Positions 21,739 to 22,908 of a DNA stretch of 32,538 nt are shown in pieces; the stretch's first letter is position 1; each line of letters begins with the position of its first letter. The notes below the pieces were generated by a model. The model was not told the origin of the DNA, searched no databases, and saw only the letters and a list, made by a program, of their open reading frames with translations. Made by a program: the position numbers and the translations under genes. The stretch is taken from NCBI GenBank assembly GCA_022824615.1, contig JAJDZM010000083.1, positions 1 to 32,538 of the forward strand. The letters run 5' to 3'. This DNA comes from Candidatus Binatia bacterium (GTDB lineage Bacteria; Desulfobacterota; Binatia; Bin18).

Positions 21739-22908
21739 TCAGACGAATTGGTTCAACGCCACATAGTCCTTCACATACTCCGGAATGAGCGCGCGGTATT
21801 TCTCCGGTACGGCCCGGAAGTCGTGGGTGGAAAAAACCGGAGAGGTGGCCAGCCTGGCGAACTGCCGTTTGTCGATGATGTCACGGGTGTAGCCGTCGGT
21901 GGTGTATGCCTTGAAGTAGGTCTTGATAGCCGCGATGGAGTCCGCCCGTGTTGGCGTATGGTCGGTGACAAACTTGGTAAATTCTTCTTCCAGCAGTTCG
22001 TCCTTGGATTTGAAGCGCGGGATGATGTCAAAAATCTTTTCCAGGACTTCACGCAGGGTCAGGCGGCGGTCCACGGCGGCAGCCTTGCGCAGCTTGGCGA
22101 GGGTGTAATGCTCCTCGGGTTTGTCGAAGACTTCGCGGTTGACGTAGTCGATGACGCGCTCCCACTGTCCGGCCTCAACCGCCTGGACGATGGTCTGGTC
22201 CTCCCGCACGGTATCCGCGAACCGGTCGAAGAACACCCGGTCTAGCCTCATTCCCTCCAGGCCGATAGTTTCTTCCGCAATTTCTTCGAGAATGTCACGG
22301 CCCAAATGCTCGTAGGTTCCGTAGCGTTGCGGGCCGTCGCCGTTCCCCTTAGCCCCGGGCCGGGGCAGTTCCAGGCCCTCGTCGTAGTTGAACTCGGTCT
22401 CGAAGTATTCGCAGTTGCCGAAGAAGTCGAACAGCTTGAAGGCGGTTTTGTGCGACTGGGTGATGGCATCCTTGAGGTCGGCGTCGAAAAGTTGATCACG
22501 AAAATCGTGCTTGCGCGTACCGCGTCCCTTGATCTGGACAAAATCGGTGGGTGAGAAGATAGGCCGGAACATGCCGAGATTCAGGATATCGGTGCAGTCG
22601 TAGCCGGTCGTCATCATGCCGACCGTCACGCAGATGCGCGCCTGCTCTTTGCCGACCAGCGGATTCTTGTCCTCGGCCTTGGCCTCCAGCACGATGAGCG
22701 GGAAGCCCTTGGCGTCGAGCAGCAGAAAGTCGATAAAGCCTTTTTGGATGTTCTCGAAGTTCTCGCCCAAACCGTCGAGGTCGGACGCCTTAATGGTGAC
22801 GCTGGGTTCAAGCTGGATATTGGCGGGGTCGTCACCGTCGGCAAAGAAACGCCAGCCAGCAGATTCGAGCAGCGTATTGATCTTGATGCGGGCGGTGGCT
22901 TCGTTCAT
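21739..22908 (-). CDS. HsdR-like restriction subunit with in-frame loss of the helicase motor core
   Basis: Start MNEATARIKINTLLESAGW (ORF track extends to 22992); nuclease domain FIDFLLLDAKGFPLIVLEAKA joined directly to late helicase segment ICVTVGMMTTGYDC...QIKGRGTRKHDF; no Walker A or DEAH. Confidence 0.85.
   Translation of the reverse strand: MNEATARIKINTLLESAGWRFFADGDDPANIQLEPSVTIKASDLDGLGENFENIQKGFIDFLLLDAKGFPLIVLEAKAEDKNPLVGKEQARICVTVGMMTTGYDCTDILNLGMFRPIFSPTDFVQIKGRGTRKHDFRDQLFDADLKDAITQSHKTAFKLFDFFGNCEYFETEFNYDEGLELPRPGAKGNGDGPQRYGTYEHLGRDILEEIAEETIGLEGMRLDRVFFDRFADTVREDQTIVQAVEAGQWERVIDYVNREVFDKPEEHYTLAKLRKAAAVDRRLTLREVLEKIFDIIPRFKSKDELLEEEFTKFVTDHTPTRADSIAAIKTYFKAYTTDGYTRDIIDKRQFARLATSPVFSTHDFRAVPEKYRALIPEYVKDYVALNQFV

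Follow-up and report, generated by a model that had tools for sequence, protein, structure and literature searches.

A probable short-repeat, in-frame deletion in hsdR of a probably decayed EcoAI-like Type I restriction-modification locus in a Candidatus Binatia bacterium

Analysis of a 32,538-nucleotide stretch of DNA from a Candidatus Binatia bacterium (contig JAJDZM010000083.1; hereafter, the window) revealed what is very probably, judged from sequence comparison, a degraded EcoAI-like Type I restriction-modification system, in which hsdR would have lost its middle by a deletion between short repeats and which is probably inactive. The minus-strand ORF at 22908..21739 encoded an HsdR-like protein of 389 aa, or of 417 aa if counted from the ATG at 22992. 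The family start, MNEATARIKIN..., was located at 22908, in agreement with the gene start given by an earlier reading of these letters without database searches (the sequence-only reading), and the in-frame ATG at 22992 was without support among the relatives. Neither a Walker A motif nor a DEAH motif was found in the 389-aa protein, and a Pfam search with the 417-aa form reported no family. The full-length congener of 837 aa contained both, with ATGTGKT (Walker A) at residue 214 and DEAH at residue 310, which confirmed the earlier claim that they were missing from the window copy. The claim of an intact frame over 22633-22645 also held: the join, at about 22640, lay within this interval, and the frame was open through it with no further stop or frameshift. 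The coordinates of the features are listed in Table 1.

Table 1. Features of the hsdR-hsdMS locus in the window and of the HsdR stubs in congeners
Feature	Position	Strand	Details
hsdR with internal in-frame deletion (likely pseudogene)	21739..22908	(-)	389 aa
Start of nuclease domain, retained	22642..22908	(-)	motif II D60, motif III E75-A-K77, Q89 of QxxxY (motif names: PMC2602864)
End of RecA2 (motifs V, VI) and C-terminal domain, retained	21739..22638	(-)	
Deletion join	22633..22648	(-)	inside AGGCGCGCA; congeners have a direct repeat of 7-9 bp; QARKY to QARIC
HicB-HicA toxin-antitoxin pair, between hsdR and hsdMS	21256..21679	(-)	PF15919, PF07927
hsdM-hsdS fusion, single target-recognition domain	19209..21224	(-)	motif I DPARGTAGFP vs DPACGTAGFL
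HsdR N-terminal stubs adjoining rpe, three congeners	L112 9429-9700; L113 9756-9950; L031 6310-6351		

When 145 relatives were searched with the protein from the window, two congeners, G002 and G006, matched as two blocks (window residues 14-120 and 116-416 for G002; 23-120 and 115-416 for G006), and residues 116-416 of the 417-aa query were 90% identical to G002. Their hsdR genes were full length and encoded 837 aa (G002) and 842 aa (G006), and the DNA identity to the window at the locus was 90% and 85%, with G002 being the closer of the two. G002 corresponds to bin18 of the sponge Aplysina aerophoba (PMC5649159), and G006 is a Candidatus Binatia chromosome in a single contig. DNA alignment of the window with both congeners showed synteny, with rpe, an S1-domain gene, and a glnE-like gene on one side and hsdMS on the other; in both, the full-length hsdR adjoined rpe and the hsdMS fusion gene lay downstream, as in the window. 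Compared with G002, 1347 bp (449 codons, residues 92-540 of the 837-aa protein) were missing from the window, and compared with G006, 1341 bp were missing. The window sequence at the join, ...GKEQARICVTVGMMTTGYD..., placed it between residues Q89-A90-R91 and I92. The deletion sites in G006 were GAGCAGGCCCGCAAG on the left and AGCAAGGCCCGCATC on the right, with AGGCCCGCA common to both; the repeat at the break was AGGCSCGCA, and the two sites in G002 agreed at 7 of the 9 bases. Such a direct repeat of 7-9 bp suggests slippage or microhomology-mediated deletion between the two AGGCSCGCA copies, by which the 1347 bp of hsdR would have been removed. Both copies of the repeat encoded Ala-Arg in the same phase in G002 and G006, so the frame would be kept after recombination. 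This in-frame outcome was unremarkable because in-frame 9-mer repeats were frequent in these genes: exact 9-mer repeats separated by over 300 bp numbered 17 in the hsdR of G002 (10 in frame) and 31 in that of G006 (24 in frame).

The residues D60, E75, and K77 of the PD-(D/E)XK motifs II and III were invariant in the window copy and 36 relatives and matched by position the residues D61, E76, and K78 of EcoAI, mutation of which abolishes restriction in vivo (PMC2602864). Residues Q89 and Y93 of the QxxxY motif were invariant in 36 full-length relatives, and the window copy read QARIC instead of QARKY. In EcoR124I, the QxxxY motif sits immediately over the active site of the nuclease and has been implicated in the coupling of translocation and cleavage (PMC4454674). 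The sequence-only reading had the PD-(D/E)XK-like domain as kept, which was correct for the three core positions, but the QxxxY tyrosine and everything that follows it in the nuclease domain were gone, as were the whole of RecA1 and the larger part of RecA2. After the join, motifs V (TTGYD) and VI (QIKGRGTR) were kept. RecA2 was cut too, since the right break was located immediately ahead of helicase motif V, and the block described earlier as C-terminal, although indeed retained, was not solely the C-terminal domain, since it began just before motif V and included both motifs. The proposed “clean in-frame deletion” was thus well supported as in frame but was not clean with respect to domains; with its left break in the nuclease domain and its right break in RecA2, it did not amount to the excision of a motor module, and since QxxxY and RecA2 were both cut internally, the protein was left with an incomplete nuclease and no motor. 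The 389-aa product is predicted neither to cut nor to translocate DNA because of these losses. Structure prediction gave a mean pLDDT of 55 for the truncated protein and 50 for the full-length congener, both of which were poor, and the models were left out as evidence of misfolding because the nuclease region was low even in the intact control.

The partner gene was also altered. HsdM-S contained PF02384 and PF01420 in one 671-aa ORF linked to hsdR, and its SAM-binding motif I was not intact, with the changes C184R and L190P in the window. The columns of Cys184 and Leu190 were invariant in 59 of 59 relatives, and the wider count gave 68/69 for Cys and 69/69 for Leu. Other HsdM proteins showed 0 to 7 departures each from otherwise invariant columns, so the number of changes in the window HsdM was not unusual; their place and kind were unusual, and they were damaging-looking. 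Since HsdM was also changed at two positions of the SAM motif, the whole system is probably decaying, and restriction would have been lost from an EcoAI-like (Type IB-like) locus. The slot between hsdR and hsdMS varied in its cargo: a PDDEXK_3 protein of the GxxExxY type in G002 (L029 6683-7156), a Fic protein in G006 (L030 7324-8208), and HicB-HicA in the window. Beyond the fusion gene, a 23S rRNA-intervening-sequence-type four-helix protein (PF05635; 18845-19273, minus strand) overlapped the end of hsdMS, and a DUF3644 protein with an EC042_2821-like nuclease domain (17693-18715, minus strand) matched the PADLOC candidate defence family PDC-S19.

Three further congeners (G001, G003, and G004) carried only an HsdR N-terminal stub that starts with MNE...ARIKINTL, beside rpe, with the rest of the gene lost, which suggests repeated or ancestral loss of the restriction system. 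In G011, an HsdR fragment (residues 65-145) was followed by sequence resembling the HsdS tail of G006. Across this genus, one of whose members is a sponge symbiont, the restriction system at a single chromosomal site is seen at different stages of loss. The dN/dS of the kept part of hsdR against G002 was low (0.137), which fits either a recent deletion or continued constraint. The lineage-specific nonsynonymous to synonymous changes were 13:28 in the window, 4:24 in G002, and 27:58 in G006; relaxed selection was not demonstrated, because the window ratio was higher than that of G002 but the same as that of G006.

The distribution of the join was analysed across 84,980 species genomes, which gave 136 relatives, of which 80 were kept. 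Walker A and DEAH were present in the frame holding the C-terminal match in 73 of the 80. The other seven comprised four loci with a frameshift and the motor in a different frame (L054, L055, L059, and L066), one at a contig end with a partial frameshift (L107), one C-terminal fragment (L086), and one cut by a contig end (L106). The join of the window was found in 0 of the 80 kept loci and, its own genome aside, in none of the 145 relatives or the 297 genomes of the phylum. Among plasmids, the listed matches had a query coverage of 74% and none of the records reached 80%, so the join was not spanned by any of them. One of the 297 phylum genomes, G309 (L126 892-1962), encoded a 356-aa HsdR without approximately residues 246-727, also in frame, next to a KilA-N protein. 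At L127 7230-8258, a KilA-N protein likewise adjoined an HsdR relative of 342 aa that comprised the C-terminal but not the N-terminal part. A conserved class of motor-less HsdR was rejected, as the join was absent from every relative and the deletion in G309 differed. For the motor-less HsdR that the sequence-only reading had considered possible, no relative with the same join was found; homologues were mostly full length, and the window copy was a lone deletion among them. Because the gene is still whole at this chromosomal position in close relatives, a decaying system is likelier than a new kind of enzyme.

A contig error or library chimera, in which the living organism has a full-length hsdR and the join came from library preparation or assembly, is improbable, even though the source genome is a 308-contig draft that is about 90% complete. 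Template switching during amplification likewise exploits short homologies, but the 7-9 bp repeat is shorter than the usual assembly k-mers, and a repeat-driven form of the assembly collapse raised by the sequence-only reading is unlikely with a repeat so short. HsdM carries independent damage, although its changes could also be explained as single-base artefacts. A motor segment elsewhere in the window's own genome was rejected: the DNA was on no other contig of the bin, and the same query detected G002 and G006 as a positive control. We infer that the join is present in the living cell. It is very improbable that a functional motor-less HsdR is made and binds the M-S methyltransferase by its C-terminal domain as a non-cutting regulator, decoy, or dominant-negative subunit: the frame is open, the C-terminal part, the presumed methylase contact in EcoR124I HsdR (PMC4454674), is retained, and G309 has its own in-frame deletion, but the join is unique to the window among the relatives, its breaks interrupt the nuclease domain and RecA2, motif I of the partner HsdM is changed as well, and the G309 copy has other breakpoints and lies on a 3.8 kb contig.

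The window hsdR is real in the assembly and ordinary in kind; it defines no new type of enzyme. The probably decayed system resembled the EcoAI/EcoEI-like (Type IB) HsdR of NF046051 (restrict_EcoAI) in the nearly identical positions of the nuclease residues, motifs V and VI, the C-terminal part, and the partner HsdM-S, but the window copy was without the QxxxY tyrosine, RecA1, and most of RecA2. The full-length congener matched NF046051 over residues 10-584 (E 4e-67) with 227 bits, below the curated cut-off of 550, so the congener group is a distant relative of this family. The PDB sequence closest to the full-length congener was the HsdR subunit 3h1t (E 4e-32), which has the same nuclease-helicase order; the window copy differed from it in missing the stretch from the QxxxY motif to motif V. 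Decayed Type I restriction-modification loci with hsdR pseudogenes are a general kind found in many genomes. The window locus resembles them in that a working hsdR was lost and the hsdM-S reading frame remains, and differs in that its deletion happens to be in frame and therefore resembles a designed protein, which makes it a clear case of a short-repeat in-frame deletion mimicking a new domain architecture.
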